Below are positions 5,272 to 29,951 of a stretch of DNA of 33,696 nt, piece after piece. Under the pieces are notes generated by a model. It saw nothing but the letters and a program-made list of their open reading frames with translations, did not search any database and was not told the origin of the DNA. Source of the stretch: a virus. The translations under genes and the position numbers were made by a program. Numbering within the stretch: position 1 is the first letter of the stretch; every line of letters starts with the position of its first letter. The stretch lies in IMG/VR virus record IMGVR_UViG_3300030107_004267, positions 1-33,696 of that record; one strand, given 5' to 3'.

Positions 5272-7524
5272 ATGTCAGCTGAAACAAAAATAACAAATTT
5301 ATTAAATTATATTACAGGAAGTGCAGGTGGTTGGCCATCAAATACTAATGTTAGTATCCTTATGGGTGTTGATTACTTCATAGAGACAGGTTCTAACAAC
5401 ATTTATTTTAGTGAAATGAACACTGCTTGTGGAGTTAGTGGTGAGTTATCAAGACAAGAGGATACTTTTGATAAAATTTCAAATTATGCAGCATCTCAAA
5501 GTTGCACAACAGCGTATGTATATGGTCAAGATGATAATGTAAAACATAATCCTTCTTCTTTTCAAGAACCATTGATTAGTGCGAGTTTTGCAAGACACGG
5601 AATATCAGTAAATTTTGAGAATAATGATAACACTTCAATAACTTATTTTTCACAAAGAGGTCAATCACAATATTCAGGTAGTTTTCATTTATTTATGCAA
5701 ACACCTTGGTTTAGTGATGATACCTTGTTTAACATCGCAAGTGGTTCGTTTAACAAAAGTTCTTTTAGAAATATTCTATCATCATCACCAGAGAGTAATT
5801 GTTTAATACCATTATTTGATAAGGATAATTATACACCTAATGTTAATTTTCCTGACTATGTCATAAAAAAACCATCAGCTCACTCATCATTAGGAAGTGG
5901 TAATATAGGATTTAGAAAATATCAATCAGGCACTACTACTTATCAAGACGCGGTAGACAATGGAAACATAACTGAAAAGTTTATAGTATCAAGTGGTAGT
6001 TATAGTGGTGGAAGAGGGCACTTACTCACTAATAAAAAATATTATTGGGTAACACCAACGGAGATTATAAATGCCGGACAAGATGTTGACCAAAGTGTAA
6101 CTTACTCAAGTCAGTTTATTATGTCAGGAAGTGAAGCATATCACCCACAACCAAGATTTCTAAGAATAGTTGCAAGTGGAAGTTTAATCAATATGTATGA
6201 TGGTTCAACAAAACAAATCCAAGATGTAGAAGTCGGTGATGTTGTTAAATCATATCAACCGATTGGTATGCCAGATGAATCAGAAGGTATAAGTTGGGAA
6301 AGTTATACAACAACAGATTTAAGTGGTTCATTTTCTTCTGGTTCTATTGTTGTTGAAACAATAAATAAACAAAGTTATGGATATTATTTAATTAACGGAA
6401 GTATAAAAGTTCCTGCAGTTCCACATACTATGCACGGAGGTGGAAAGTTCTTTTGTAAAACAGGAGACGCTTGGAGTTGGAAGCAGTCAGTTGATATATC
6501 AGTCGGAGACTACTTTTTAAATAATGATGGTAGTGAGTTAGAAATCACATCAAAAACTAATGTTTTATCAGATGAAACATTTTATGGACTAAATGTTGAG
6601 GATATTGATACATACTTTCAATCAAATATATTGGTTCATAATATCCCACCACTTTGTTTTGTAGCAGGGACACAAATCACAATGGGAGACGGAGCTACAA
6701 AAGCAATAGAACTTATTGAAGTAGGTGATGAAATTAAAAATTATGACTTTGAAACAAAAGAAATCAAAGTAGGTAAAGTATTATCCATTGAAACACCAAC
6801 ACACGCAGATATCGTAGAGATTAGTTTCGGTGATAAGAAAAGTAGAAATACATTTGACCACCCATATTGGGTAGTCGGAAAAGGTTGGTCATCTTACAAA
6901 CCACATTGGACAGAAAAAAGATATGACATCAAATCTGGACAATTAGAGGTTGGAGATAAATGTTTAGAACTTCAAGATAATATAATCATAGAAACTGAAA
7001 TAACTGATATCCAAGAGGACATCAATCCAGTTCAAACATATTCATTGGGGGTAGAAACACACAAAAATTATTTTGCTAACGATATGTTAGTTCATAACAA
7101 AGGAAGTTTTTGTTTTACTTATGACACTATGATTACATTATCAGACGGAACATATCAACAGATATGTAAAATCAGACCAAACGATATGATAAAAACATAT
7201 GATGTAGAAACTGGTAAATTACAAAATTCAAAAGTGTTAGAAACCGTAAAAGTTCTACACGACAATATGGTTACATACAAATTTAATGACAATACAAAAA
7301 TTGAGGCAACTGACGACCACCCATTTTACATAGTTGGGAGTGGATACAAAGCACCATTAACCATTGGTGATATAGTGTTAAATGATGAATTACAAGAAAG
7401 AGAAGTTGTCAATATAGAGGTAAATAATGTGGAAAAAATTACATACAATATCAACAGAACTGATAATGGTAAAAATTATTTCGCAAATAGGGTTTTAGTT
7501 TCTGATGAGTTTGATACAGAATAA
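5272..7524 (+). CDS. Large protein with three tandem C-terminal Hint (intein-like) modules
   Basis: A 750-residue protein. Residues 1-295 match no family I can name; they are rich in Ser, Gly and Asn, which would suit a virion or fibre protein. The rest is three Hint modules. Module 1 (about 299-457) has no Cys at its start but ends in ILVHN. Module 2 (462-609) starts with CFVAGT, has an internal DHP (529-531) and ends in MLVHN. Module 3 (614-744) starts with CFTYDT, has DHP (682-684) and ends in VLVSD with no terminal His-Asn. Only four residues separate modules (IPPL and KGSF). There is no homing endonuclease insert and no Cys, Ser or Thr at the +1 position, so these resemble bacterial intein-like domains that cleave rather than splice. 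Good AGGAG before the start. Confidence 0.75.
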   Translation: MSAETKITNLLNYITGSAGGWPSNTNVSILMGVDYFIETGSNNIYFSEMNTACGVSGELSRQEDTFDKISNYAASQSCTTAYVYGQDDNVKHNPSSFQEPLISASFARHGISVNFENNDNTSITYFSQRGQSQYSGSFHLFMQTPWFSDDTLFNIASGSFNKSSFRNILSSSPESNCLIPLFDKDNYTPNVNFPDYVIKKPSAHSSLGSGNIGFRKYQSGTTTYQDAVDNGNITEKFIVSSGSYSGGRGHLLTNKKYYWVTPTEIINAGQDVDQSVTYSSQFIMSGSEAYHPQPRFLRIVASGSLINMYDGSTKQIQDVEVGDVVKSYQPIGMPDESEGISWESYTTTDLSGSFSSGSIVVETINKQSYGYYLINGSIKVPAVPHTMHGGGKFFCKTGDAWSWKQSVDISVGDYFLNNDGSELEITSKTNVLSDETFYGLNVEDIDTYFQSNILVHNIPPLCFVAGTQITMGDGATKAIELIEVGDEIKNYDFETKEIKVGKVLSIETPTHADIVEISFGDKKSRNTFDHPYWVVGKGWSSYKPHWTEKRYDIKSGQLEVGDKCLELQDNIIIETEITDIQEDINPVQTYSLGVETHKNYFANDMLVHNKGSFCFTYDTMITLSDGTYQQICKIRPNDMIKTYDVETGKLQNSKVLETVKVLHDNMVTYKFNDNTKIEATDDHPFYIVGSGYKAPLTIGDIVLNDELQEREVVNIEVNNVEKITYNINRTDNGKNYFANRVLVSDEFDTE

Positions 7525-15244: not shown

Positions 15245-15741
15245 AAAATACCACTTGGAAACAAATAGAACCTGGACAAATAATTAGATTTATGTATAAG
15301 GGCGTTCAAGATAACAGAGCAGTTCAGAGAGTTGTTTTAGTTATAGACCCATTATATCGATACAGAAAAAAATCAACGGGTAGAGTGGTGCAATTTTTAG
15401 TTGGTATTCAATTAGATACATTAATAAGTCAACCAATAAACAAGCAAAAGTTTTCTAAACTAATTAGACAATTTGGTGGACTCGAGGAGGAAGATGGTGC
15501 GGTTGAAGTAGGTGATTTACCAGACAAACCCACCAGACAAGTTACAAGACAAACTTACAAAACACTAGATAGATTTTTGCAAAGAAATGATGTATTTAGA
15601 ACTTTCTTTTTAAGAGAGTGTAGGAAAAAAAGAGTGTTTTTATTAGATAGTTACAAAAGATTTCCAAAAAAAGATATGGATAAACTCATTATTGAGAGAA
15701 AAATAAGTAATACTATAAAAAAGTTTGAGGAAATGTTATGA
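15241..15741 (+). CDS. Hypothetical basic protein
   Basis: A 166-residue, strongly basic protein. The N terminus (EPGQIIRFMYKG then VVLVIDPLYRY) has the look of a small beta-barrel, and the C-terminal half is helical and Arg/Lys rich (FFLRECRKKRVFLLDSYKRF). Nucleic-acid binding is possible from charge alone. I do not recognise the family. Coupled to both neighbours by 4-base overlaps. Confidence 0.6.
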   Translation: MKNTTWKQIEPGQIIRFMYKGVQDNRAVQRVVLVIDPLYRYRKKSTGRVVQFLVGIQLDTLISQPINKQKFSKLIRQFGGLEEEDGAVEVGDLPDKPTRQVTRQTYKTLDRFLQRNDVFRTFFLRECRKKRVFLLDSYKRFPKKDMDKLIIERKISNTIKKFEEML

Positions 15742-16397
15742 AAATTAGTTACGGAATAACGGTTTATAATGAATATAAAGAGTTAGATAATTTATTGTTT
15801 CACCTATCTAAGCATATCAGAGATGTAGATGAAGTGGTGGTCACACAAGACACATCAAAAGTTGGGGAAAAGAATATAGTACAAGATGAGTTTCAAGCGC
15901 TAGAAAAAATATTAGAAAAATATGAGTATGGAAATTATTTCAGAAATTTAAAAGTAACATCATTTAAATTCAATAAAGATTTTGCAGAACTAAAAAACTT
16001 TACAAAAGAACATTGTTCAGGTGATTATATATTTCACATTGACGCAGATGAAATACCAAATGAAATATTACTAAAGCAACTTCCAGAGATACTAAATATA
16101 AATGATACAGACTTAGTTTGGGTTCCAAGAATTAATATTGTTGAAGGAATAACTGAATGGCATCTAAATCATTGGAGGTGGAGACAAACTGAGCAGGGGT
16201 GGATTAATTTTCCTGATTATCAAGCGAGGATATTTAGAAATGTGGAACATATTAAATGGATTAAACCAGTTCACGAAATAATAGACGGGGCTTCAACTTA
16301 TTCACATTTACCACCACACGAAGAATTAACTTTAATGCATAAAAAAAATATTAAACGACAAGAAATACAAAATAATTTGTATGATACAATAGTATAG
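15738..16397 (+). CDS. GT-A glycosyltransferase, family 2-like (1)
   Basis: A 219-residue GT2-type enzyme. The fold is shown by the N-terminal strand YGITVYNEYKELDNLL and the metal-binding motif FHIDADEIP, with D102-A-D104. The later segment WHLNHWRWRQTEQGWINFPDYQARIF is typical of GT2 proteins that read as TPR-less waaE-like transferases. GAGG precedes the ATG. The epimerase gene follows after an 8-base gap, so it may use the sugar that enzyme makes. Confidence 0.78.
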   Translation: MKISYGITVYNEYKELDNLLFHLSKHIRDVDEVVVTQDTSKVGEKNIVQDEFQALEKILEKYEYGNYFRNLKVTSFKFNKDFAELKNFTKEHCSGDYIFHIDADEIPNEILLKQLPEILNINDTDLVWVPRINIVEGITEWHLNHWRWRQTEQGWINFPDYQARIFRNVEHIKWIKPVHEIIDGASTYSHLPPHEELTLMHKKNIKRQEIQNNLYDTIV

Positions 16398-16405
16398 GAG
16401 TGAAA

Positions 16406-17257
16406 ATGGACATATTAGTTACAGGTGGAGCAGGTTTTATTGGAACAAACCTAATCAAAAGATTATTAAAAGACGGGCACAATGTTGTAAGTTTGGATAA
16501 CTATTCAACAGGTAAAAAAGAAAATGAACAAGAGGGTTGTGTATATCACGATGTAGATATTAGAGACGCTGTTGACTTTGATTTCTTTATGGAAAAACCA
16601 GATGTGATTTATCATCTGGCAGCACTTCCAAGAATACAACCATCATTTGAGTTTCCGGCATTGACTATGGAAATCGGTATGTTGGGAACTATGAATATCT
16701 TGGAGTGGGCGAGAAATAAAGATTATAAACCTATGGTAATCTACGCTGGTTCATCATCAGTTCATAGTGGACACTACGAAAACCCTTACACTTTTTCAAA
16801 AGTAATGGGTGATGAACTTTGTATGGCATACAAAGAAATGTTTGGAGTTAACGCTAAGATTTGTAGATTTTACAATGTATACGGGCCGCATCAATTGACC
16901 GAGGGAGAGTATTGCACGGTAATCGGTGTATTTGAAACACAATATCAAGAGGGTGTTGAGTTAACAATTACAGGCGACGGAGAACAAAGAAGAGATTTTA
17001 CACACGTTGATGATATCATTGATGGATTAATATTGACTTCTGAATCAGAGAATTTCGAATTAGACTATGTTGAACTTGGTAGAGGACATAATCACTCAAT
17101 CAATGAGTTAGCAGAAATGTTTGGTTGTGGTTACACATACATACCTAAAAGACCAGGTGAAGCAGAGGTAACACTTTGTGACATATCACTCGCTAAAAAA
17201 GATATAGGATATGAACCAAAAGTAAATCTAGAGGACTACATTAAGAGTGTGGTATGA
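16406..17257 (+). CDS. NAD-dependent sugar epimerase/dehydratase (extended SDR)
   Basis: Nucleotide-sugar epimerase or dehydratase, 283 residues. It has the Rossmann NAD loop GGAGFIG (7-13), the catalytic SSS region at about 116-118 and Y128-x3-K132 in NPYTFSK. The match is to the UDP-glucose 4-epimerase/WbpP-like group; exact substrate cannot be read. I place the start at ATG 16406, with GGAG at 16397-16400 spaced correctly, rather than at the in-frame GTG at 16400, which would lie inside that ribosome site. Supplies activated sugar to the surrounding transferases. Confidence 0.85.
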   Translation: MDILVTGGAGFIGTNLIKRLLKDGHNVVSLDNYSTGKKENEQEGCVYHDVDIRDAVDFDFFMEKPDVIYHLAALPRIQPSFEFPALTMEIGMLGTMNILEWARNKDYKPMVIYAGSSSVHSGHYENPYTFSKVMGDELCMAYKEMFGVNAKICRFYNVYGPHQLTEGEYCTVIGVFETQYQEGVELTITGDGEQRRDFTHVDDIIDGLILTSESENFELDYVELGRGHNHSINELAEMFGCGYTYIPKRPGEAEVTLCDISLAKKDIGYEPKVNLEDYIKSVV

Positions 17258-18000
17258 AACAATATAGTATCTTTACCGTAACAGACGAAAGTTATAAATA
17301 TTACACAGAAGTTTTCTTCAAATCACTTAATAAAATTAATATGGACTTGATAAAAAAGGTCTATGTATGCGACCAAGGAATGAGTGAGGGTCAAAGAGAC
17401 TTTGTAAAATCTTTTGATAAAGTTCAAATAATAAATCCAGTAAATAAAATCAATGAAAAAACAGAAATAGTTTGGGATGAAACTTGGTTAAAAAAGGTTG
17501 GTTCAAAAACTGAGAATTTATTAAAACTGGTGGAGGATAATGAAGAACCAATAGTTATGATTGATGTTGACTCAATGTTCATCAAAGACTTTTATGATTT
17601 ACTAGACTTTGATAAAGATGTACAAGTGGCTCATAGACCACCAAACTTTCCAGATTATATCGCATCGTTTGTATGTATTAATAAAAAAACTGGTATAGAT
17701 TTTATTAATAGATGGATTAAGAATATTAATAATCTACCACAAGCGCCGAAAGAAACCAGAGCATTATGTAATACGATAAGTGAATTCAAAAATAACATAG
17801 ATGAGTTTAAAATTGGAGATTTACCAGTAGAGCAAATACATTTTTACGGACAAGAATCTGAGTGTGAAAAAAATGATACAAGAGTGGCTCATTTCAAAGG
17901 TTATTCAAAAACAAAATATCTAGGGAACAAAGAGGACTTTAATAATAGAACTAGTCTAAGAGGTTATGACGAAAGACTAAAAGAGTATATCAATGTGTAG
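17254..18000 (+). CDS. GT-A-like glycosyltransferase (GT8-like)
   Basis: A 248-residue protein with a GT-A layout: N-terminal FTVTDESYKYYTEVFFKSL, then VMIDVDSMF with D104-V-D106 as the metal and nucleotide-sugar site, and a late HFKGYSK resembling the HFxGxxKPW end motif of GT8 enzymes. It overlaps the epimerase by ATGA and the asparagine synthase by 8 bases. Sugar specificity unknown. Confidence 0.62.
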   Translation: MKQYSIFTVTDESYKYYTEVFFKSLNKINMDLIKKVYVCDQGMSEGQRDFVKSFDKVQIINPVNKINEKTEIVWDETWLKKVGSKTENLLKLVEDNEEPIVMIDVDSMFIKDFYDLLDFDKDVQVAHRPPNFPDYIASFVCINKKTGIDFINRWIKNINNLPQAPKETRALCNTISEFKNNIDEFKIGDLPVEQIHFYGQESECEKNDTRVAHFKGYSKTKYLGNKEDFNNRTSLRGYDERLKEYINV

Positions 18001-19294
18001 CTTCACAATAACAAATAAAAATATTAATTTACTTGATACTAATTTTTTTTCACAAAAAAGAGGCCCGGACTTAACAAATACTTTTGAAGAGAATGGAGTC
18101 TCTTTCCTACACAATTTACTACATTTAACTGGAGATAAAACTAAGCAACCATTCTATGATGATGATATTGTATGTGTATTCAATGGTGAGATTTATAATT
18201 ACAAATCTCTTGGTGATTACAAGACTGATGGAGAGTGTTTAATTCCAATGTATAAAGAATTTGGATTTCAGTTCGCTAAAAAACTAGATGGTGAGTTTTC
18301 TATTTGTATTGTTGACTTCAAAAAATCAAGACTGATGTTGTTCAATGATACCTTTGCAACTAAACCATTGTGGTTTGCAGGACAAGAAAATGATTGGGGG
18401 GTGGCATCATATGAGAGTTCATTAAAGTCTGCCGGATTTGAACTTCCACAAAAAGTTGTGGGAAATTACGCTTGGATGTTTGATTTAAAAAACTTGGACG
18501 AGATTGGTGGATACAAAATAAAAGAGTTTGATTTAAACCAACACAAAGATACATATGACGATTGGATAAAAGCTTTTGAAAAATCTATCAGTAAACGAGT
18601 CAATACATCAAAAGGTATATTTTTAGGTCTTAGTGCGGGATATGATAGTGGAGCTATAACTTGTGAACTATCAAAACAAAATATCGACTTTAGTGCGTAT
18701 ACTATATTATCTTCGGAAAATGAGAGTGTTATAAATCAAAGACACTCAAGATTGAAGTCTGGTGAGATAATAAGACTTACAAAAAAAGAGTATTCTGATA
18801 TATCTGATTATTTGGAACATAATTGCGAAGATTTCTTATACCAAAATTATAATATTAAATCTGATAAAGCTTCAAAAGGATTAGGAAAAATTTGCCAGAG
18901 AGCTAATCAAAATAATGAGAGAGTTTATCTATCAGGACAAGGAGCAGACGAGATTATATCTGATTATGGTCACAATGGAGCTAAAATCTATGGACATAGT
19001 CAGTTTGGAGGACTATTTCCAAACAATCTAGAGGGATTCTTTCCTTGGAATAGTTTTTATGATGGAACGCAAGTACAATATTTAAATAAAGAAGAGTATG
19101 TCGCTGGTACATATGGTATTGAAACGAGATATCCATTTCTTGATACTGAATTAGTTCAAGAATTTTTATGGTTATCAAGTGATTTTAAAAATAAACAATA
19201 TAAAGCACCACTTACAGAGTATTTAGAGAGAAATAACTATCCATTTGAAAAAGGTGTAAAAACAGGATTTAGAGCTAACACAAATTTAATTTAG
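17993..19294 (+). CDS. Asparagine synthase-type glutamine amidotransferase
   Basis: Two-domain enzyme, 433 residues. The N-terminal class II glutaminase begins with the required Cys2 and has RGPD (23-26) and NGEIYNY (64-70), which position glutamine. The synthetase domain carries the ATP pyrophosphatase loop LSAGYDSG (S214 to G220) and later SGQGADE. It is shorter than AsnB (about 550 residues), like versions in surface-polysaccharide loci that amidate sugar acids. Either asparagine supply or amidation of a sugar is possible; the neighbouring sugar genes favour the second. No strong ribosome site; overlaps the upstream gene. Confidence 0.85.
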   Translation: MCSFTITNKNINLLDTNFFSQKRGPDLTNTFEENGVSFLHNLLHLTGDKTKQPFYDDDIVCVFNGEIYNYKSLGDYKTDGECLIPMYKEFGFQFAKKLDGEFSICIVDFKKSRLMLFNDTFATKPLWFAGQENDWGVASYESSLKSAGFELPQKVVGNYAWMFDLKNLDEIGGYKIKEFDLNQHKDTYDDWIKAFEKSISKRVNTSKGIFLGLSAGYDSGAITCELSKQNIDFSAYTILSSENESVINQRHSRLKSGEIIRLTKKEYSDISDYLEHNCEDFLYQNYNIKSDKASKGLGKICQRANQNNERVYLSGQGADEIISDYGHNGAKIYGHSQFGGLFPNNLEGFFPWNSFYDGTQVQYLNKEEYVAGTYGIETRYPFLDTELVQEFLWLSSDFKNKQYKAPLTEYLERNNYPFEKGVKTGFRANTNLI

Positions 19295-19297
19295 GTT

Positions 19298-19912
19298 ATG
19301 AAAATAGATAAAAATATATTACATAAATATTGGTTAGAGCACGAGGATAAATTTAAATCTATTGTTGATTCAATGACTTATAGACCTTGTGGTGTATGGT
19401 ATACTGATGCTTTCTTATTCTTATCAATGTGTGATTTATTAGGTGTCGATTTAATTATAGAGTCAGGTAGAGCTTGGGGTGTGTCTACTGAAATTTTTGC
19501 AAAGTATTTTAAAGATGTTGAAATACATAGTTTTGAAAGAGTTCCTGAAAGAGCGGAGATAGAAGCTCGAAAACACTTAAGTAAACTAGATAATGTTTAT
19601 TGTTACAATATGAATGTGTTTGATAATAGTAGATTAGTTGTTCAAGATAACTTTGACAAAAATATCGGAGTTTTTATAGATGGGCCAAAAGACCACGAAG
19701 CTCAACAAAGTTTAACAAAACATTTAGATTACACAAATGTCAAAACATTTGGTTATCACGATGTCAAAGATTATGGTAAGGAAGACTTTCACACTTACGA
19801 CTTAGATTTTATCCAAGACTTTATGTATTTAAATGATAAGATTTTTATAGAAGACCCATCACAAATGAATAATGGTAAACTAGGGTGTGGGTGCTTGGTA
19901 AAAATAAATTAA
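19298..19912 (+). CDS. Class I methyltransferase-fold protein
   Basis: A 204-residue Rossmann-like protein. LIIESGRAWGVSTEIFAKYF (52-71) occupies the place of the SAM-binding strand and glycine loop, though the loop is degenerate (ESGRAWG). HSFERVPERAEIE follows as the second strand with an acidic residue, and GVFIDGPKDHEA (D128) as strand four. This resembles the methyltransferase-like proteins often found with glycosyltransferases. Activity is uncertain because the glycine motif is weak. AGG before the ATG. Confidence 0.6.
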   Translation: MKIDKNILHKYWLEHEDKFKSIVDSMTYRPCGVWYTDAFLFLSMCDLLGVDLIIESGRAWGVSTEIFAKYFKDVEIHSFERVPERAEIEARKHLSKLDNVYCYNMNVFDNSRLVVQDNFDKNIGVFIDGPKDHEAQQSLTKHLDYTNVKTFGYHDVKDYGKEDFHTYDLDFIQDFMYLNDKIFIEDPSQMNNGKLGCGCLVKIN

Positions 19913-19932
19913 AGTTTAGAGTTTTTATTCAC

Positions 19933-19940
19933 TATTTATT
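19933..19940. promoter_or_regulatory. TATTTATT element before the neuB-like gene
   Basis: TATTTATT in the 39-base gap, 12 bases before the ATG at 19952, followed by GAGG. It is the only such gap inside the glycan module, so it may start a separate transcript for the nonulosonic acid genes. Confidence 0.35.
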
Positions 19941-19951
19941 ACTGAGGTTAT

Positions 19952-21022
19952 ATGTTTAGAAAAAATCCAGACGAAGTTTATATCATAGCAGAAATAGGAC
20001 AAAATCATAATGGTGATATTAATATTTGTAAAAAATTAATAGACCAGTTGATTGTTTATTCATATGATGAAATCACAGGCGATAGATTAAATACTATCAA
20101 CGCCATCAAATTAACTAAAAGAGATATGACAGAAGAGTTAACGACTGAGCAAATGAATCGTCCATATGATTCGAAACACTCTTTCGGTAAAACTTATGGA
20201 GAGCATAGAGAGTTTGTTGAATTATCTTATGAAGACCATTGTGAAATATCAGACTATGTTCGTAGTAAAGGAATAGATTTTATTGATACTTTATGTTCAC
20301 CAAAGTGCGTTGACTTAGTTGATATGACCACTATTGATAAAATTAAAATAGCTTCTAGGGATTTGACAAATATTCCATTACTAAAAAGAGTGGCAGAGAC
20401 TGGATTAGATGTAATCGTATCAACAGGTATGAGTGATATGTATGACTTAGTTGAGGCATTAAATATACTAGATACTGGTAGAAATGAGGTATCAATTTTA
20501 CATTGTTTGTCACAATATCCAGCTCAGTATGATAGACTAAATTTACTATCAATAGAGGATTTGAAAAATAGATTTGGTAAAGCACATAAAATAGGTTATT
20601 CAGACCATTCACTAGGTAATCACATACCATTAGCCGCTGTAGCTATGGGAGCGGAAATAATCGAAAAACACGTCACACTAGATAGAAGTATGAAAGGAAC
20701 AGACCAAGCCGGTTCATCGGAACCACAAGAAATGAAAGAGTTAGTTCATAATATTAGAACATTTGAGATGTCAAAGGGCACATTAGGAATATTCAAAGAT
20801 GAGTCAACCATCGAGGCATCAAAAAAACTAGAGAGGTCATTAGCCGCTAATCAAGAATTATATAATGGTAATATAATTACAGAGGATGAAATACATATGT
20901 TGAGTCCAGGCGATGGTCTAAAGTGGAGTGATTTAGATAAAGTAGTCGGTAAAACAATTAGGAATGACATCCCTAAAAATGCACTAATACGATTGGAGGA
21001 TTTAGTTGACACTATTGACTAA
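19952..21022 (+). CDS. neuB: N-acetylneuraminate/nonulosonic acid synthase, NeuB-like
   Basis: Predicted to condense phosphoenolpyruvate with an N-acetylated hexose to make a nine-carbon sialic-acid-type sugar. Evidence: AEIGQNHNGD (13-22), the TIM-barrel strands IKIASRDLTNIPLL and VIVSTGMSD, then LHCLSQYPAQY, IGYSDHSLG and EKHVTLDRSMKGTDQAGS, all characteristic of NeuB/PseI/LegI. Residues from about 290 form the C-terminal SAF (antifreeze-like) domain, with RSLAANQ at its start. The 356-residue length is standard. Which sugar (Neu, Pse or Leg) cannot be read. GAGG before the ATG. Confidence 0.92.
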   Translation: MFRKNPDEVYIIAEIGQNHNGDINICKKLIDQLIVYSYDEITGDRLNTINAIKLTKRDMTEELTTEQMNRPYDSKHSFGKTYGEHREFVELSYEDHCEISDYVRSKGIDFIDTLCSPKCVDLVDMTTIDKIKIASRDLTNIPLLKRVAETGLDVIVSTGMSDMYDLVEALNILDTGRNEVSILHCLSQYPAQYDRLNLLSIEDLKNRFGKAHKIGYSDHSLGNHIPLAAVAMGAEIIEKHVTLDRSMKGTDQAGSSEPQEMKELVHNIRTFEMSKGTLGIFKDESTIEASKKLERSLAANQELYNGNIITEDEIHMLSPGDGLKWSDLDKVVGKTIRNDIPKNALIRLEDLVDTID

Positions 21023-21677
21023 TGGTTGTAGTTTTACCTGGGGAGCAGAGCTTGATGATAGGGAGTTAAGGTTTGGCAGATTACTATCTAATAAAATAGA
21101 TTGTGATTTGATTGACATATCTAAGAATGGTTCATCAAATGAAAGAATACTAAGAACTACTCTTGATTATTTAAATGAACCAAATACTAATTTAAATGAT
21201 TTAATGGTCGTGATAGGTTGGAGTGGAATAGCCAGAACAGAGTTTTTCTGGGGTGGTGGTTGGGCTAATATAACACCAACGATGATTGGAACCGATGAAA
21301 TAGCCACTTATTATTATACACATATACAATCGGTAAGACAAGATAACTTAAGTTTTTATAATCAAGTATTATTACTACAATTATTATTAGAGAAACATAG
21401 TATAAAATATTTTATGTTCAGACACGATGATGGTAATACACCACAAATGATTAAAGATGGCACAAAACAAGAGGTCAAAGATGGATATGATAATAGCTAT
21501 ATTGGTGAATCACGATTAAATGATATAAACTTGAAAACTTTTCCAAGTTATATCAATAACGATTTAACTTTTAGAGAATATTCATTAAAAAATGGTGGCG
21601 GATTAAAACCAGGCAGACATCCTGACGAAAAATCACACAAAATATTTATGGAGCACATTTATGAAAATTTATGTTGA
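21006..21677 (+). CDS. SGNH/GDSL hydrolase-like protein 3
   Basis: Third SGNH-like protein, 223 residues from a TTG start at 21006. That start has GGAGGA five bases upstream, and no ATG lies before the catalytic block. Block I is LTNGCSFTWGAELDD (S9), closely like copy 2 (GCSFTFGEELDD). SKNGSSNERILR matches the copy 2 Gly/Asn block. The late His is H205 in GRHPDEKSHK; the residue three before it is Pro, not Asp. It sits between the NeuB- and HAD-like genes, so O-deacetylation or O-acetylation of a nonulosonic acid is a reasonable guess. Confidence 0.66.
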   Translation: MTLLTNGCSFTWGAELDDRELRFGRLLSNKIDCDLIDISKNGSSNERILRTTLDYLNEPNTNLNDLMVVIGWSGIARTEFFWGGGWANITPTMIGTDEIATYYYTHIQSVRQDNLSFYNQVLLLQLLLEKHSIKYFMFRHDDGNTPQMIKDGTKQEVKDGYDNSYIGESRLNDINLKTFPSYINNDLTFREYSLKNGGGLKPGRHPDEKSHKIFMEHIYENLC

Positions 21678-21975
21678 TATAGATAATACTATATGTACAC
21701 AAGAACTAGAGGACTATGGTCAAGCAAAACCTTGGTTGGAAAATATATTAAAAGTTAACAAGTTATATGACAAAGGACACGAGATAACTTATTACACAGC
21801 TCGTGGTAGTGTTACTGGGATTGATTGGTATGACACCACAAAAAAACAATTAGATGAATGGGGTTGTAAATATCACGAATTAAGTGTTGGAGAGAAACCA
21901 CATTATGATTTAATAATAGATGATAAGTCAATGAGAATAGAGGAGATAATGGTAGAAGATGAAATCTTTGAATGA
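21661..21975 (+). CDS. HAD-superfamily phosphatase
   Basis: A compact 104-residue HAD phosphatase. Motif I is VDIDNT (D6, D8, T10), motif II TARG (T46), motif III K79 in GEKPHY, and motif IV IIDDKS (D87, D88). It lacks a sizeable cap, like KdsC-type and capsule-locus phosphatases that act on sugar phosphates. Lying between NeuB- and NeuA-like genes, it could remove the phosphate from a nonulosonic acid 9-phosphate before activation. GGAG before the ATG; overlaps both neighbours by 17 bases. Confidence 0.82.
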   Translation: MKIYVDIDNTICTQELEDYGQAKPWLENILKVNKLYDKGHEITYYTARGSVTGIDWYDTTKKQLDEWGCKYHELSVGEKPHYDLIIDDKSMRIEEIMVEDEIFE

Positions 21976-22657
21976 AATAGCGGTTGTCGTTCAGGCGAGA
22001 TATAACTCAGAAAGAGTTCCTTTCAAAATGTCGCAGGGTATAAATGATTATCCATTCGCATCAACAAGTTTGTTGGATATTGTGTTAGAAAAATTAACTA
22101 AAAGTGAAGTGATTCAAAATAAGCATATTTATTTATCAGTTCACGAAGAGGGTCTGATTCAAATAGGTGAAAAGTATCCAATCAATATCCACAAAAGAAG
22201 TTGGGAAAGTGCAAATGTTGATAGTGGTATTGATGTATTGTTTGATTGGTGGGATAAATTACCATATAAATATGTAGTTATGGTTAGTGGTTGTAATCCA
22301 TTCTTAAAAATAGAAACTATTGAATCATTTTTCAACAAGTATATGTTCTCGCCACACGATGGAATGTTTAGTGTGGTGGAAAGAAAAAATTATTTCTGGA
22401 ATACGGAAGGTGAAATGTTAAACAAATGGCCAGAGGGTCAAGACTTACTAAATACTAAAGCGGTCGAAACCACATATGAAGCAGGACATTGTTTATATGG
22501 TAGTAAAATGTCAGATATTGGAAAAGGTAAATGGGTAGGAAGTTGGACTAAAAAAAATGACCCAGTATTGTTTCCGGTTAGTGAGTTTGAAGCATTTGAC
22601 ATTGATGAACAATGGCAGTTTGATTTAGTGAAAAGTTATTATGAGAAACAGAACTAA
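21959..22657 (+). CDS. neuA: Cytidylyltransferase, NeuA-like (CMP-nonulosonic acid synthetase)
   Basis: Predicted to activate a nonulosonic acid with CTP. The N terminus VVVQARYNSERVPFKM is the nucleotide loop of CMP-NeuAc synthetases (canonical form xxARxxSxRxPxK). VVMVSGCNPFLKIETIESFF corresponds to the substrate-binding QxTSPLR segment, here altered to SGCNPF. The 232 residues are the standard length. It overlaps the HAD and DUF115-like genes, placing synthesis, dephosphorylation, activation and possible transfer in one operon. Confidence 0.83.
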   Translation: MKSLNEIAVVVQARYNSERVPFKMSQGINDYPFASTSLLDIVLEKLTKSEVIQNKHIYLSVHEEGLIQIGEKYPINIHKRSWESANVDSGIDVLFDWWDKLPYKYVVMVSGCNPFLKIETIESFFNKYMFSPHDGMFSVVERKNYFWNTEGEMLNKWPEGQDLLNTKAVETTYEAGHCLYGSKMSDIGKGKWVGSWTKKNDPVLFPVSEFEAFDIDEQWQFDLVKSYYEKQN

Positions 22658-23414
22658 AGAATTAAGTAATAAAATACAAGAGTTAGAATTTGTTGAGGAT
22701 AGACTAGAACTACTTCACGATACATATTCAGATTGTAAAGCAGTAATTTTAGCACCTGGCCCAAGTCTAAATGATTATGAAAACTTAAGGAAAGAATTAG
22801 AGTCAAGAGCGGACTTAGTTGTCTTGTCCATAAAACAAGCGTATGACAAAGTTGGTAGTGCCACAGACTTTCACATCGTAAACACATATAACTTCGATAA
22901 ATATAATGGATATGATTATGAAAGTCTGGACTCTATAATATTTTATGGTTTGTCTGAATCTTACGCTCAAGCACAACTAGAAAAAATACAAATCAAACCA
23001 AGTCCTTGTGACATATATGTTTTAGTAAAAAACCCACCTTACCTTGAATATGATGAATGTATACATAAATCTCAAAATTTTGATTTACTAAAATTATTAA
23101 AAAAAGAGAGTAGGTCACATTGGGGAACATCAATACTATACGAACAAGCAATACCAATGGCATTGTTATTAGGTTGTAAAGATATAACGACCATTGGTTG
23201 GGATTTGTCTACTGGTAAACACTCTTATAAGGATGATGAAGTTGGCTTTAAACCAAATGAAGCTGAGACTAAGAGGACTAATGACTCGATTGAATCAACA
23301 AAAGCGTTACACGAATGGTTCATAAAAGAGAATATAGATTTTAAAATAATATCAGAGACTAATCCAGCTTATGATAAAATAAAGAGGATAAAAAGTATAA
23401 ATGAAATTAGATAA
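22641..23414 (+). CDS. DUF115/Maf-like protein, possible nonulosonic acid transferase
   Basis: A 257-residue protein with AVILAPGPSLNDY (34-46), the glycine-rich turn shared by DUF115 (MptE-like) proteins and sialyltransferase-like folds, and GTSILYEQAIPMALLLGCKDITTIGWDLS (about 161-190; key residues GTS, ALLLG, GWDLS), the second conserved block. DUF115 domains occur in the Maf proteins that attach pseudaminic or legionaminic acid to flagellin. Its place directly after NeuA makes it the best candidate transferase for the CMP-activated sugar. An MptE-type pterin kinase is the alternative and has less contextual support. Confidence 0.66.
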   Translation: MRNRTKELSNKIQELEFVEDRLELLHDTYSDCKAVILAPGPSLNDYENLRKELESRADLVVLSIKQAYDKVGSATDFHIVNTYNFDKYNGYDYESLDSIIFYGLSESYAQAQLEKIQIKPSPCDIYVLVKNPPYLEYDECIHKSQNFDLLKLLKKESRSHWGTSILYEQAIPMALLLGCKDITTIGWDLSTGKHSYKDDEVGFKPNEAETKRTNDSIESTKALHEWFIKENIDFKIISETNPAYDKIKRIKSINEIR

Positions 23415-24399
23415 TAAATATATTATTGGGTGTCATTGTATGTTCTATGAGATTGATATGGTAGAGGAGTATCTCAACTCATTAAAACTCGCATTAGAAG
23501 ATATAGAAAATCCAGAGAATGTATTAATTGAGATGATGTGGAATATGTCTGAGTATTTTGAAAAGTGTGAGACTAAACAATCTATATATTCTAAAATTGA
23601 AAAACTAGAAAAAAAGTATGATGTAAAAAGTTTATTTTATGAAGACAATGATAATCCATATACAATGGCAGATTATCGTAGAGAGTTAAATAATAAATGT
23701 AATGGTTATGATTATGTTATATGGGGTGAATCAGACTGCTTAATGCCAAGACAGATGTTTGGTGTATTGGAGCAACTAAAAACATACGCTAATCAACAAG
23801 GTATTCATAGATACATTACTACTTTTGGTATTAGAAAAATGTGGGATGAGAGTTGGAAAGTTTTAGAACATCCTAAATTTACTGATAAACCATACTATGA
23901 AATGGACACCGAAGAGGAAATCAGACTAGCCACCACGTCACCTTGGTCTATAAGATACACAATGAGTCAAAAAGAAATGGACGATGTCAATAATTTAACA
24001 GATGAAATAGACTTAAGATTGATTGACTATCCAAAGTTTGATGGAAGTGGATTAGTTATATCATCTGACTTATTGAGAAGTGGTGCAAACATACCACCTG
24101 CAGTGTATATGAACGGGGATGACACATCATTTTTAGAAAGTTGTAGACTACATATGGGTAATAATTACAAACAATTTGTCGTAAAAAACATACTAAAAGT
24201 TCATAATAGAACTCATCCTAAAAAAAGAAGATATGTTTTGAATGAAGATGAATCAGTTACTTCACATAAAAAAAGAGGACAAAAAGCTTGGTATAAAATA
24301 TTCAATCAAATATCTAAGGGTAATTTAAGTAAATTATTTTATTCTCAAGATAGATTTTCTACATACGATGATTTTAAAAAGGCAGTTGGAAAAAAATGA
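23401..24399 (+). CDS. GT-A-like glycosyltransferase (divergent)
   Basis: A 332-residue protein. The N terminus YIIGCHCMFYEIDMVEEYLNSL and YDYVIWGESDCLMPRQMF (E110-S-D112 in the metal-site position) suggest a GT-A fold related to family 2. The latter half contains FDGSGLVISSDLLRSG, typical of the acceptor-side loop. It overlaps both neighbours. Donor unknown; the divergent DxD (ESD) makes activity less certain. Confidence 0.55.
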   Translation: MKLDNKYIIGCHCMFYEIDMVEEYLNSLKLALEDIENPENVLIEMMWNMSEYFEKCETKQSIYSKIEKLEKKYDVKSLFYEDNDNPYTMADYRRELNNKCNGYDYVIWGESDCLMPRQMFGVLEQLKTYANQQGIHRYITTFGIRKMWDESWKVLEHPKFTDKPYYEMDTEEEIRLATTSPWSIRYTMSQKEMDDVNNLTDEIDLRLIDYPKFDGSGLVISSDLLRSGANIPPAVYMNGDDTSFLESCRLHMGNNYKQFVVKNILKVHNRTHPKKRRYVLNEDESVTSHKKRGQKAWYKIFNQISKGNLSKLFYSQDRFSTYDDFKKAVGKK

Positions 24400-25001
24400 G
24401 ACTGATTGACATACTTGAACAAAAACAATACAAAACAGATAAGTGGACTGACCACCACTATGTTCAAGAAATATATGAACCACTATTCGCACAATACCAA
24501 GAGAAAGAGATAAACTTTTGTGAGATTGGTGTTTGGAATGGTGAGAGTATGAAACTTTGGTCAGATTACTTTGTGAACGCAGATAACATAGTCGGTGTGG
24601 ATATTTTCACCAGAGCTAGCCAAAAAGAGGTTGAAAAGAACCTAGAGGGATTTGATGTAAAACTTCACAAATTTAACTCTTATAAAGACATTGACAAATT
24701 TAATAAGTTTTCTAAAAAATATACAAAAGGATTTGACATCGTGATTGATGATGGTAGTCATTGGTTTGATAATCAAATTAGCACATACAAAAACTTTAGT
24801 AAAATGATGAATCAGGGCGGAGTTTATATAATTGAGGATATATCATTTGTACCAGAGTCATTTTTAGAAATGATAAAACTTGATGGTAAAAATGTAACAA
24901 CTTTTAAAGTATCAAAACTTCAACACGAGATACCAAATATTGAATTTTATTTGACAGGCGGTGAGACATATACTAATCCAGTAGGAGTGATAAGGTTCTG
25001 A
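24396..25001 (+). CDS. SAM-dependent methyltransferase (class I)
   Basis: A 201-residue methyltransferase. TDKWTDHHYVQEIYEPLF leads into FCEIGVWNGESMKLW (E43-x-G-x3-G), the SAM loop, then IVGVDIF as the ribose-binding strand, FDIVIDDGSHWFDNQ as motif IV with its DDGSH, and GGVYIIEDIS. This is the layout of the macrocin O-methyltransferase and CmcI-like group that methylate sugars. It probably methylates a sugar made by this cluster. ATGA overlap upstream; one-base overlap downstream. Confidence 0.82.
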   Translation: MRLIDILEQKQYKTDKWTDHHYVQEIYEPLFAQYQEKEINFCEIGVWNGESMKLWSDYFVNADNIVGVDIFTRASQKEVEKNLEGFDVKLHKFNSYKDIDKFNKFSKKYTKGFDIVIDDGSHWFDNQISTYKNFSKMMNQGGVYIIEDISFVPESFLEMIKLDGKNVTTFKVSKLQHEIPNIEFYLTGGETYTNPVGVIRF

Positions 25002-26434
25002 TGAAAAATGTAGTATTTATACCGAATGTTGATTTAGGTGATGGTAGAAATGAACCATACAAATATTCAATAAAAAGTTGGAAACATTTTTGTGATAAGT
25101 ATGATTGTGAACTACTAGTGTTAGAGGATTTATTAGTCCCAGTTGAGTCAATGAAAGTTACTTGGCAAAGATTTTACTTATTCGATATCTTAGAGCAAAA
25201 CGAAATAGACTATGACCAAATATTATTAGTGGACGCTGATACTATCGTTCATCCAGATTGTCCTAATTTTTTTGAGTTGACTAATCACGAATATAGTGCA
25301 GTCGTAAATAATGGTAGTTTTGAATGGGTTAAAAGGTCAGTAGAGGCGTATTCTGAACTTATGTTTGATAATGAAATACCATTTGATTTATGGAACTATA
25401 TTAATTGTGGGTTTCAAATTGTAAATAAAAAACATAAACCATTTTTTGAATTCGTCACACAATATTATCACGATAACCAAAAACTAATTCAAGACTCTAT
25501 AAGTAAAGTTCAAGCAGGAACAGACCAAACCATTATTAACTTTTTACTAAGACAGCAAAATGTAAAAATAAACTATCTTCCAGTATGCTATAATTTACAA
25601 GACTTGAATTCGAAACAATTATTATTTTTAGATGAGAGAATGTGGTTTGAAGACGACATAATTTTTAAAGATTGTGGTTGGGTATATCACTTTAACGCTA
25701 TACCACCTAATCCAATGGACAGAGACGCAAAATATTGGATTAAAAGAACATATACTGATTTATATGTTGATAAAGAATTACCATTAGATTTACTATTAGA
25801 TGTACAAAAAGATAAATTAATATATCACAATACCACATCTAATAAATTTAAAAAAGATTTAGTAAGTTTTTTTGGTGACGATTATAAAGATAAGAATGTT
25901 TACGAAGTTGGAGCAGACGCTGGTCTGACATCTAGAGTATTTAGTTTTCTATTTAAAAATGTAATTGTGAACAACAACTGGAATCCAAATAATTATGATA
26001 AAAATAATGATTGGATAGTGAAAGACAAAATTGAGACACAAAAAGATTGGTATGATTTGTATTCAGTTGATTTAAAAAATGAAATAAAACACGAGTTTGA
26101 CAATATAAAATATTTACAAATGGATTCATACAATGTCAGGGGTTGGCCAACAAATATAGTGAAAGATATATCAGTAGTGATGATAGATTGTATGCACACA
26201 TTTCAAGCGGTTAACATCGACATTGAAAATGCACTAAAATTGAATCCAGACTATATTATATTTGATGATTATGGATTAAAATCTATGGCAGATGTAAAAC
26301 AAGCGGTGGACAATCACGATAAAATAGAGATTGTAAAAAAGATAGGACTAAAACCAGGTGAATACAAAGCCAAAGACAGGCCAAAACCAATGAAGTTTGT
26401 AGATTCAGAAGGAGTTATATGCAAAGTAAAGTAA
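25001..26434 (+). CDS. Bifunctional-looking GT-A glycosyltransferase plus methyltransferase-like domain
   Basis: A 477-residue two-domain protein. Residues 1-270 form a GT8-like GT-A domain: QILLVDADTIVHPDCPNFF with D78-A-D80, the acceptor segment NYINCGFQIVNKKHKPFF, GTDQTIINFLL, and a late WVYHFNA. Residues from about 285 form a Rossmann domain: NVYEVGADAGLTSRVFSF in the SAM-loop position, then VVMIDCMHTFQAVNIDIENAL and YIIFDDYG. No stop or frameshift separates them, so it appears to be a true fusion. The methyltransferase half could instead be a non-catalytic relative. Confidence 0.66.
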   Translation: MKNVVFIPNVDLGDGRNEPYKYSIKSWKHFCDKYDCELLVLEDLLVPVESMKVTWQRFYLFDILEQNEIDYDQILLVDADTIVHPDCPNFFELTNHEYSAVVNNGSFEWVKRSVEAYSELMFDNEIPFDLWNYINCGFQIVNKKHKPFFEFVTQYYHDNQKLIQDSISKVQAGTDQTIINFLLRQQNVKINYLPVCYNLQDLNSKQLLFLDERMWFEDDIIFKDCGWVYHFNAIPPNPMDRDAKYWIKRTYTDLYVDKELPLDLLLDVQKDKLIYHNTTSNKFKKDLVSFFGDDYKDKNVYEVGADAGLTSRVFSFLFKNVIVNNNWNPNNYDKNNDWIVKDKIETQKDWYDLYSVDLKNEIKHEFDNIKYLQMDSYNVRGWPTNIVKDISVVMIDCMHTFQAVNIDIENALKLNPDYIIFDDYGLKSMADVKQAVDNHDKIEIVKKIGLKPGEYKAKDRPKPMKFVDSEGVICKVK

Positions 26435-27351
26435 TATTTTTTAGTGAAAGTAATATAAAGGGTAAAGTTCCAAGAGATTTTGAGAATGCTAGGACTGAGT
26501 TCGGGTGGTCTATTATGTTGGACGCTGAATGGTGTCCACTAAATGATATTCCAAAAGTGTTAGATTATGATTTAGGAATAGTCATAATACCAAAAAATAA
26601 CCCACAAGTGGATATAGACTTTTTCAAAGAGTTTTGTAAAAATGTAGCGGTAATGCAAGAGGGGCCACATTGGTATTATCAAGATTACCCAGTTGACAAA
26701 CAAATACACTATATAAATTGTTTGAGAGAAGCGGATTGGGTATATTGTCACAATAATTCAGATGTAAAATATTACAAAGGATTAGGTTGTGAAGATGTTA
26801 GAGTAATGAGAAGTATGATGATTCCGGAGGGATTGGATAGTCAGATTACTACATCGCAAAAAAATGGAACATTATTAGGTGGTAATTTTGTTTCTTGGTA
26901 TGGTGGTATGGATAGTTATCTAGTAGCATCAGAAGTTAATGAACAAAAGTATGGTGTTTCAATGGGTAGAAAGCAAGAGCAAGAAGAAATGATTGAAGAT
27001 ATAAAATATCTACCTTATATGAGCTGGAGAGAGTGGATAAATCACATAGGACAATACAAAGTTGGAGTTCATTTAATGAGAACCCATGCGGCTGGGACAT
27101 TTAGTATGAACTTATCTTGGCACGGAACGCCAGTGATAGGATATAGTGGACTAGACACACAAGAACTTTTACACCCACAAACCACCGTGGAAGTAGGAGA
27201 CTTGGTAAAAGCGAGACAAATAATTAAAAAGTTATATGATGATGAGTTTTTCTATCAAGAGTGTTCAGAACAAACAAAAAAACTATTCAATAAACACTAT
27301 TCAGAGGAAGCGTGGTTAAAGCATTGGAGGAGACAAAATGAAACCATTTAG
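26419..27351 (+). CDS. GT-B glycosyltransferase-like protein
   Basis: A 310-residue protein that fits a single-chain GT-B enzyme of reduced length. YCHNNSDVKYYKGLGCEDVRVM corresponds to the end of the N-terminal domain. YKVGVHLMRTHAAGTFSMNLSWHGTPVIGY matches the donor-side segment (key residues HAAGTFSMN, GTPVIG), though the usual second glutamate is missing. A strong AAGGAG stands before the ATG. Position between two other transferases supports a glycan role; donor unknown. Confidence 0.62.
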   Translation: MQSKVIFFSESNIKGKVPRDFENARTEFGWSIMLDAEWCPLNDIPKVLDYDLGIVIIPKNNPQVDIDFFKEFCKNVAVMQEGPHWYYQDYPVDKQIHYINCLREADWVYCHNNSDVKYYKGLGCEDVRVMRSMMIPEGLDSQITTSQKNGTLLGGNFVSWYGGMDSYLVASEVNEQKYGVSMGRKQEQEEMIEDIKYLPYMSWREWINHIGQYKVGVHLMRTHAAGTFSMNLSWHGTPVIGYSGLDTQELLHPQTTVEVGDLVKARQIIKKLYDDEFFYQECSEQTKKLFNKHYSEEAWLKHWRRQNETI

Positions 27352-28528
27352 TTTTATAATACCAAGTAGAAACAATTTGACATATCTAAAAATGTGTTAT
27401 GATTCAATTAGAAAAAACGCTGGATACACTCACGAGATATGTTTCGCTGACGATTTTTCAGAGGACGGAACCTTAGAATGGATATTAGTTCAAATGAAAA
27501 GAGACAAGAATATTAAGTTATATAATAACAAAGGGCCAGAAAGAATGGGACTAACTATATTGTATGACAAGTTAGTTAGAGAGTATGCAACTAATGATAG
27601 GTTGATATTTTTTCATTCTGATATGTATTTGTTTCCAGAAGCATTAGAGGAAATAGACAAGCACTTAAAAGAAAAAGTCGTTGTATCATTGACAAGAGTT
27701 GAACCACCACTACATCCAGCTGGGCCAGAAAAGATAATAAAAGACTTTGGTATGGAACCAGAGGAATTTAAAGAGCAAGAATTATTAGATTGGTATAATA
27801 GATACGACTCAAACCCAACAGGTTATTTTGAAGAAACAACTGAGGGAGTATTCGCACCTTGGGCTATTATGAGAGATGACTTTGAATCGGTTGGTGGACA
27901 CGATAAATTATTTAGACCACAATCTAAAGAGGATAGTGATATTTTCAACAGATTATATTTAAATGGAGTACAATTTATTCAAACTTGGAAAGGATTAGTA
28001 TATCATATGACTTGTCGTGGCAGTAGATTTAATCCATACGCTGGTGGAGCACCCGGTAAAGATAGTCCAGAGTGGATTCAAACCACGACTAAGAATATGA
28101 GAAATTTTATTAGAAAATGGGGAACTATGGTAGAACACGATAGTTTTATGAAACCGATTGTCAGTCCGAAGTATAATGTAGGATTTAACTTAACAGATGA
28201 TTGTCCAATGGACATATTGATAGCGATTGAACCTTATTGTGATATGTTATTTGCGCCAAATCAAGAGGTGATAGATATGTATATTAAGGAAGAGCAAGAA
28301 TTAACAGACTATAATTTAAGTGAAAAACTAAATCCCGAGTCATTCAATCCTGGGGTCGAAGTCAGATTCAATCCAAAAAGTATGAGTCAATATAGTTGGA
28401 GTCTATTACAACAACTACCAAAAATCATACGAGATAGTGGTGAAGTGGGTACATTTGAATTAGATATATTTGAAATAAAAATAAAATCAATGAAAACATA
28501 TGAAAAGGAGCTAATAAGTGCAATATAA
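27338..28528 (+). CDS. GT-A glycosyltransferase, family 2-like (2)
   Basis: A 396-residue GT2 protein. The N terminus FSFIIPSRNNLTYLKMCYDSI, CFADDFSEDGTLEW and the metal site FFHSDMYLFPEAL are canonical. APWAIMRDDFESVGGHDKLF, then QSKEDSDIFNRL, matches the ED-type acceptor/base region. The last 110 residues go beyond the catalytic domain and are unassigned. GGAGG before the ATG. It is the last clear sugar gene of the module. Confidence 0.82.
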   Translation: MKPFSFIIPSRNNLTYLKMCYDSIRKNAGYTHEICFADDFSEDGTLEWILVQMKRDKNIKLYNNKGPERMGLTILYDKLVREYATNDRLIFFHSDMYLFPEALEEIDKHLKEKVVVSLTRVEPPLHPAGPEKIIKDFGMEPEEFKEQELLDWYNRYDSNPTGYFEETTEGVFAPWAIMRDDFESVGGHDKLFRPQSKEDSDIFNRLYLNGVQFIQTWKGLVYHMTCRGSRFNPYAGGAPGKDSPEWIQTTTKNMRNFIRKWGTMVEHDSFMKPIVSPKYNVGFNLTDDCPMDILIAIEPYCDMLFAPNQEVIDMYIKEEQELTDYNLSEKLNPESFNPGVEVRFNPKSMSQYSWSLLQQLPKIIRDSGEVGTFELDIFEIKIKSMKTYEKELISAI

Positions 28529-29466: not shown

Positions 29467-29495
29467 TTGACATTGTCAAAATTTATTACTATATT
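29467..29495 (+). promoter_or_regulatory. Sigma70-like early promoter P1
   Basis: TTGACA (29467-29472), 17-base spacer, TATATT (29490-29495), preceded by AAAAGC. The consensus -35 and exact spacing suggest recognition by unmodified host RNA polymerase, as for T4 early promoters. TTGACATTGTCAA around the -35 is itself a palindrome. Confidence 0.75.
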
Positions 29496-29547
29496 ATAGT
29501 GTAAGTTATTTGATAATTGGTGATAAAAAAAAAAGTTAAGAAAAAGC

Positions 29548-29576
29548 TTGACTTTCTCATTTTTTATTATTAGATT
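29548..29576 (+). promoter_or_regulatory. Sigma70-like early promoter P2
   Basis: TTGACT (29548-29553), 17-base spacer, TAGATT (29571-29576), with AAAAAGC just before it as in P1 and P3. It lies 81 bases after P1 in the same direction and shares TTATTA and ATTATA blocks at the same offsets, so the two look like a duplication. It stands about 30-60 bases ahead of the structured RNA and is the likeliest promoter for it. Confidence 0.65.
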
Positions 29577-29605
29577 ATAATGTTATTTGACAATTAGGTA
29601 GTAGA

Positions 29606-29834
29606 TTCATCACGAAAACCTTATCGTGTCCAGGAAGGGCGATAGTCGAGGGCGATGTTAACGGCGATAAGGCAGGTGGTTAGGTAAACAAAACAAACAA
29701 ATCACTTTGGAAACTTAGTGTGGTTTGTTTCCGATATGCCGGGAGCACAAACATCAGATTAGATACTGGTCTTGGAAACTTGACTTGGAGTCTGGTGGCG
29801 AAAAACAATAGTCTGGGTGTCAAGGGGTGATGAA
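29606..29834 (+). ncRNA. Structured non-coding RNA of unknown family
   Basis: No open frame of useful length, more G+C than its surroundings, and several perfect helices nested in order. Closing helix: TTCATCAC (29606-29613) with GTGATGAA (29827-29834). Helix 2: CCTTATCG (29619-29626) with CGATAAGG (29665-29672). Helix 3: AAACAAAC (29691-29698) with GTTTGTTT (29723-29730), then CACT/AGTG inside. Helix 4: CATCAGA (29752-29758) with TCTGGTG (29791-29797, one G-U pair). Helices 3 and 4 are both capped by the same ten bases TTGGAAACTT (29707-29716, 29772-29781), a GAAA tetraloop on a G-C pair with flanking U-U mismatches. GGCGAT occurs three times at 29638, 29651 and 29663. I see no match to tRNA, tmRNA or RNase P RNA. 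The transcript may extend to 29903. Confidence 0.7.
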
Positions 29835-29853
29835 AGAACTACCGAATATTTAG

Positions 29854-29903
29854 GGTGTGGGTGTGTTTGGTTATGTCTTTTGTGTCTTTTTTCTTCCCAC
29901 ACC
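29854..29903 (+). terminator. Long-loop hairpin after the structured RNA, possible terminator
   Basis: GGTGTGGG (29854-29861) pairs perfectly with CCCACACC (29896-29903) across a U-rich 34-base loop, followed by AAGATTTTTTAG. The downstream T run fits termination, but the large loop is unusual. It could instead be the 3' domain of the RNA. Confidence 0.45.
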
Positions 29904-29922
29904 AAGATTTTTTAGAAAAAGC

Positions 29923-29951
29923 TTGACAAGTTCAAGTATTATTTGTATATT
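29923..29951 (+). promoter_or_regulatory. Sigma70-like early promoter P3
   Basis: TTGACA (29923-29928), 17-base spacer, TATATT (29946-29951), preceded by AAAAAGC. Nearly identical in its key elements to P1. It lies just ahead of the small-gene array; GGAG follows at 29953 and the first ATG at 29961, so the leader would be very short. Confidence 0.78.

Follow-up and report, generated by a model that had tools for sequence, protein, structure and literature searches.

A structured RNA of about 250 bases with a boxA-like leader in uncultured T4-like viruses

The viral DNA analysed here (the window: 33,696 nucleotides, IMG/VR record IMGVR_UViG_3300030107_004267) contains a stretch of about 300 bases that an earlier note, made from the letters alone, had read as a structured non-coding RNA of unrecognised family. 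Does this locus encode a structured RNA, and if so, is that RNA a gene of its own or a control element of its neighbour? The homologues bear out the core of the claim, since the helices covary among them. Judged from the aligned sequences, positions 29597-29843 are a real structured RNA of ∼250 bases, not previously catalogued (RNA A), which is probably transcribed independently.

A pattern scan of IMG/VR yielded 7 loci, and scans with flanking proteins together with further pattern scans brought the number to 33 (window included, partial copies counted); the near-complete copies represent 24 distinct sequences. The carriers are uncultured T4-like viruses: the window encodes a DNA polymerase, sliding clamp and clamp loader, and the closest named relative is Microcystis phage Mel-JY01, at 47-55% identity to the gp32-like and UvsX proteins of one related locus (L004). 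A marine origin, a suggestion of the earlier note, fits the relatives found. No significant match to RNA A was obtained in cultured phage records by blastn, or in the whole genomes of Mel-JY01 and Flavobacterium phage immuto; none of 84,980 bacterial and archaeal genomes yielded a copy when scanned with a pattern that demands close sequence. Rfam 15 upheld the view that the family is not a recognised one: the window had no match at the gathering threshold, and at E ≤ 10 RNA A and a divergent homologue gave chance-like sub-threshold matches and nothing meaningful. RNA A did not match manA (RF01745, at least 55.2 bits), whose matches fall downstream, in a second RNA (RNA B, below), nor did it match GOLLD, which is linked to phages, or ROOL, both of them Rfam families. 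ARAGORN detected no tRNA or tmRNA gene in the window and 12 related loci. Indels of 1, 2, 9, 11, 13 and 14 bases among the relatives argue that RNA A has no coding frame, as the earlier note had seen. A covariance model (R1) built from 23 RNA A sequences scores 222-259 bits on every complete copy. It found nothing beyond the close RNA A family in 834 kb of related viral loci, and nine of 25 records searched whole had a match, with one copy apiece. For phages known only from metagenomes, RNA A adds an RNA family whose secondary structure has been tested and for which a covariance model can be used.

A MAFFT alignment, RNAalifold and hand inspection concur on helices P1b, P2, P3, P4, P8, P9, P5 and P6 (Table 1); RNAalifold, run independently, gave a nearly identical fold. 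P2/P3, the hairpin P4 and an irregular arm P8-P9-P5-P6 are all closed by P1/P1b. The closing pair proposed earlier is P1b, which the outer P1 helix extends; P2 and P4 of the earlier list are real, and every feature it named is present in the window. P8/P9/P5, the best covarying part, was absent from that list and is missed by single-sequence folding. ACTACC is kept in relatives despite a variable hairpin insert (up to ∼90 bases) in the 3' side of P1 in some of them, and three loci (L101, L104 and L111) have a different short closing helix instead of GGTAGT/ACTACC.

Positions 29595-29860 fold with a minimum free energy of -73.3 kcal/mol; compared with 200 dinucleotide shuffles, of which 4 were as low, z is -2.47. 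Folding energy alone is modest evidence; covariation is decisive. Among 23 sequences, 97.4% of 1265 cells are paired, and 11 pairs, with 50 cells, have changed on both sides; none of 500 shuffles reached the observed value on each measure, and when the partners were slid by 1-3 columns, pairing was 36-48% with 0-1 doubly changed pairs. Because kinship among the sequences inflates counts of pair changes, each alignment column was also re-evolved on a FastTree tree to give 1000 null alignments. Their means were 92.8% paired, 4.7 pairs and 11.5 cells (maxima 95.3%, 9 and 30), against 97.2%, 11 and 52 observed for 24 sequences, values that none of the 1000 reached on any of the three measures. A per-pair G-test with the tree null was significant for one pair only, in which C-G changes to U-U. 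Block exchange of the 3' half between sub-families makes such per-pair statistics weak; many double changes in that half come jointly as block replacements, so that independent events are fewer than changed cells. Across the alignment, these comparisons show the pairing of RNA A to be preserved by compensatory change.

Table 1. Features of RNA A, its leaders and the accompanying RNAs (window positions unless a locus is named).
Feature	Position	Strand	Remarks
P1 promoter, TTGACA-17-TATATT (11/12)	29467..29495	+	upstream promoter and leader also in most relatives
First boxA-like element GTTATTTGATAATT	29505..29518	+	tandem upstream leader
P2 promoter	29548..29581	+	TTGACT at 29548; TAGATT/TATAAT around 29571-29581
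boxA-like element GTTATTTGACAATT	29582..29595	+	transcript 5' end; compare E. coli rrnB GCTCTTTAACAATT and 8 rRNA leaders GTTCTTTGACAATT
Helix P1 (outer), 5' strand GGTAGT	29597..29602	+	pairs with 29838-29843
Helix P1b, 5' strand TTCATCAC	29606..29613	+	pairs with 29827-29834; 98.9% of cells paired
Helix P2, CCTTATCG.../...CGATAAGG	29619..29627 with 29664-29672	+	C-G to U-A on both sides, 3 tree changes
Helix P3	29628..29631 with 29650-29653	+	C-G to U-A in L005
13-base tandem duplication, source of repeated GGCGAT	29637..29649	+	from the alignment; only window and L003
Self-complementary loop UGUUAACG	29656..29663	+	candidate dimerisation loop
Helix P4, GAAA-capped, 11 bp in window	29695..29705 with 29720-29730	+	core 7 bp: 98.8% of cells paired
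Helix P8	29733..29742 with 29813-29821	+	9 pairs, 100% of cells paired, 3 changed on both sides
Helix P9	29745..29746 with 29798-29799	+	C-G to G-C swap
Helix P5	29755..29760 with 29789-29794	+	three pairs changed on both sides
P6 hairpin, GAAA tetraloop 29775-29778	29768..29785	+	closing pair G-C 13 / A-U 10
Helix P1b, 3' strand GTGATGAA	29827..29834	+	
Helix P1 (outer), 3' strand ACTACC	29838..29843	+	3' end of closed RNA domain
Long-loop hairpin GGTGTGGG...CCCACACC, then GATTTTTT	29854..29913	+	possible terminator, window-specific
RNA B	L009:3951-4490, L004:4126-, L043, L038, ∼40 further loci		boxA-like leader, own terminator
RNA C	L007 ∼7160-7230 (-), L098, L112, L114:14555-, L117		∼65-base hairpin behind first boxA-like leader

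Two details stressed in the earlier note fared less well. The twin TTGGAAACTT hairpins are both in the window, but their shared ten-base apex is not conserved in the family: the second hairpin reads UUAGAAAUAU in 10 of 23 sequences and the first UUUGGAAACAUU in most, while the second keeps GAAA and a closing pair (G-C in 13, A-U in 10). An identical apex as a conserved docking motif is not supported, and no canonical 11-nt GAAA receptor was seen by eye. The triple GGCGAT is real in the window, but two copies come from the duplication listed in Table 1, and the repeat as a functional element found no support. The loop UGUUAACG is UGAUAUCG in 6 of 23 sequences, with four paired swaps on the tree and no single-sided one. 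Since its self-complementarity is always kept, dimerisation is proposed; the invariantly self-complementary loop (UGUUAACG or UGAUAUCG) suggests that RNA A dimerises. If 62-65 paired directly, the loop would have only two bases, which would make an intermolecular contact the easier reading, although the palindrome swap could instead reflect contacts within the small loop.

Every copy of RNA A is preceded by TTGAC, a spacer, a TATATTAT-like -10 and then GTTNTTTGANAATT; synthesis from sigma-70-type promoters, conserved before every copy, is plausible. The leader element GTTNTTTGANAATT resembles the rRNA boxA antitermination site. In 872,620 bases a 14-mer leader pattern has 107 copies, with ∼1.2 expected under a second-order Markov model, an expectation that is post hoc because the pattern was first read off these same leaders. 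RNA A is immediately preceded by 33 of the copies, and 25 more belong to the tandem leader upstream of it; 47 stand before RNA B, 2 at contig ends and none elsewhere. Whole viral records gave the same result, and a reversed-pattern control gave 0 in eight viral records. The independent parts of the leader evidence are this exclusivity and the match to rRNA. In E. coli rrnB, GCTCTTTAACAATT occupies a comparable position, and GCTCTTTAACAATTT is located 143 nt upstream of 16S. Several RNA B leaders have the form GTTCTTTGACAATT; exactly this form precedes a genuine 16S start (match lengths 122-164 bases) in 8 bacterial genomes from varied phyla.

The likeness is closest outside position 4, which is A or T in every RNA A leader and C in rRNA boxA; RNA B leaders have A, T or C there. 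Compared with the boxA consensus GYTCTTT(A/G)ANA, RNA A leaders match except at C4, and several RNA B leaders agree at every position. The 16S-leader-like matches recovered from a one-phylum sample had C at position 4, with one doubtful exception carrying G (GTTGTTTGAGAATT in G076), which is probably not an rRNA leader. The consensus in gamma-proteobacteria is GYTCTTTAANA, and in E. coli a suhB boxA with the double mutation C4T/T6C lost SuhB association (PMC5725501); the boxA of rRNA leaders is bound by NusB/S10 (PMC6614801; PMC10250234). We regard boxA function as a strong, unproven lead for the RNA B leader and as a reasonable, likewise unproven lead for that of RNA A; the likeness may be convergent, or the host may differ. 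The absence of C at position 4 before RNA A, unlike in rRNA leaders, and the confinement of the element to phage RNA leaders would also suit a structured trans-acting RNA whose GTTNTTTGANAATT leader is a phage-specific element rather than boxA, e.g., a site for a phage antitermination or processing protein. We consider this unlikely, if worth keeping in mind: the remaining positions match rRNA boxA closely, and RNA B leaders, with A, T or C at position 4, include the exact rRNA form.

The genomic context bears on whether RNA A is a gene of its own. It usually lies close to gp32/UvsX genes, and what follows it differs: a terminator in some loci, an ORF or another promoter in others. In 24 loci RNA B follows at a distance of 374-752 nt, and in 2 others at 2.2-2.3 kb; none was seen after the copies in the window, L104 or L111. 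Between A and B, about half of the loci have an ORF (MILKVVGQVKGH...) with a good ribosome-binding site and a start ∼60 nt after P1. This ORF, together with the filing of the neighbouring manA motif as cis-regulatory by Rfam, speaks for a rival explanation, a riboswitch or attenuator acting in cis from the 5' UTR of the downstream gene. That explanation is rather improbable, however: there is no constant type of downstream gene (terminator then RNA B, ORF or fresh promoter), the fold closes on itself, and after some copies a terminator precedes any gene. Because its downstream neighbour varies, a trans-acting RNA gene of its own is favoured. As for a DNA-level structure or protein operator, to which the palindromic GTTAAC/GATATC and the AT-rich promoter surroundings might point, the helices are so rich in G-U pairs (U-G in 18 of 23 sequences at one pair each of P2 and P8) that RNA fits, and promoters and leader indicate transcription of the folding strand, which makes this reading highly improbable.

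RNA B is a conserved non-coding RNA of ∼480-540 nt just before the single-strand binding protein (gp32-like) gene and UvsX; a late-promoter-like motif, TATAAATA, stands before it in many loci. In some loci RNA B scores above the Rfam manA cut-off, which suggests that in these phages manA forms the core of a free-standing RNA and calls its cis-regulatory label there into question. The stem of its intrinsic terminator (L009 ∼4380-4450 and equivalents) varies compensatorily (AAAGCCCC/GGGGCTTT, AGAGAGCC/GGCTCTCT, ATGGTCA/TGACCAT); the terminator loop CGATTTTTAGTTTCCAC is almost invariant, an unusual conservation for a terminator. Most loci have a second promoter and leader upstream of the RNA A leader, and in L007, L008, L095, L098, L112 and L114-L117 this upstream leader starts a small hairpin, RNA C, whose tetraloop hairpins are interchangeable (GACTCTTCGGAGTC, GGCGTAAGCC, GGCGAAAGCC) and whose stem sequence differs between loci.

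With some reservation, we favour the explanation that the phage carries RNA A as a free-standing gene, whose product is a stable structured RNA that acts in trans and whose synthesis is Nus-assisted. The RNA A leader would act like rRNA boxA and bind host NusB-S10, so that the RNA polymerase would be shielded from Rho along the untranslated transcript and the 5' strand would be kept near the exit channel until its partner, ∼230 bases later, is transcribed. P1 would then seal the ends so that the RNA accumulates, the self-complementary UGWUAWCG loop would let two copies pair, and RNA A would act in trans on host or phage machinery. The earlier proposal of a regulator of host machinery is a guess. 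A wider scenario, in which a clade of marine T4-like phages borrows the host rRNA transcription mode for a boxA-led RNA cassette with a homodimeric, trans-acting RNA A, is put forward tentatively. It would be as speculative to say that the cassette holds up to three RNAs (C, A and manA-containing B) beside the gp32/UvsX replication genes, and it is a possibility of the same modest order that manA, at least here, is a free-standing RNA core and not a 5' UTR riboswitch. If the boxA reading is true, rRNA antitermination is a route that phages also take to make non-coding RNAs of their own, and a search for boxA-like leaders would be a way to more of them.

Known systems offer partial parallels. 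As in rRNA operon leaders, a GTT.TTTGA.AATT element leads an untranslated structured RNA, in which a 5' strand needs a 3' partner that is made later; unlike them, RNA A is phage-encoded, ∼250 nt long and has A or T at position 4, with no boxB or boxC recognised and no rRNA family match. T4 species 1 and 2 are small stable untranslated RNAs of the T4 tRNA cluster whose function is not known. Compared by description, RNA A is likewise a small untranslated RNA of a T4-like phage, but it has its own promoter and usually lies near gp32/UvsX genes, not in a tRNA cluster. The manA motif (RF01745) is also marine and found in T4-like phages (Weinberg et al., 2010; PMC2864571), and the neighbouring RNA B of several loci exceeds its gathering cut-off, whereas RNA A matches neither manA nor any Rfam family, and the motif as described is classed as a cis-regulatory 5' UTR element. 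GOLLD and ROOL are ornate RNAs that form homo-oligomers (PMC12286853), as RNA A could through its self-complementary loop; RNA A is much smaller, and its oligomerisation is only inferred.

Several other candidates were rejected. Mimicry of 16S rRNA, proposed from GATTAGATAC (29757-29766), which is similar to the 16S 790 loop, was discarded, as the majority of family members carry AATCAGATAC and the sequence straddles helix P5. Kissing between RNA A and RNA B, through the RNA A apex UGGAAACU complementary to AGUUUCCA in the RNA B terminator loop, is unsupported because viral contigs in which RNA A was not found keep this loop just as invariant. A CsrA/GGA sponge was dropped: GGA motifs are no more frequent than composition predicts (rough hand count).

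A short-loop terminator scan did not pick up the hairpin at 29854-29913. Directly after RNA A, at 29913-29951, a third promoter (AAAAAGCTTGACA-TATATT) lies upstream of small ORFs. Elsewhere in the window, a 750-aa ORF at 5272-7524 has repeated Hint/intein-like segments by eye, and at 15738-28528 a long run of ORFs whose translations, read by eye, resemble glycosyltransferases, epimerases, asparagine synthases and sialic acid synthases looks like a surface-sugar cluster.
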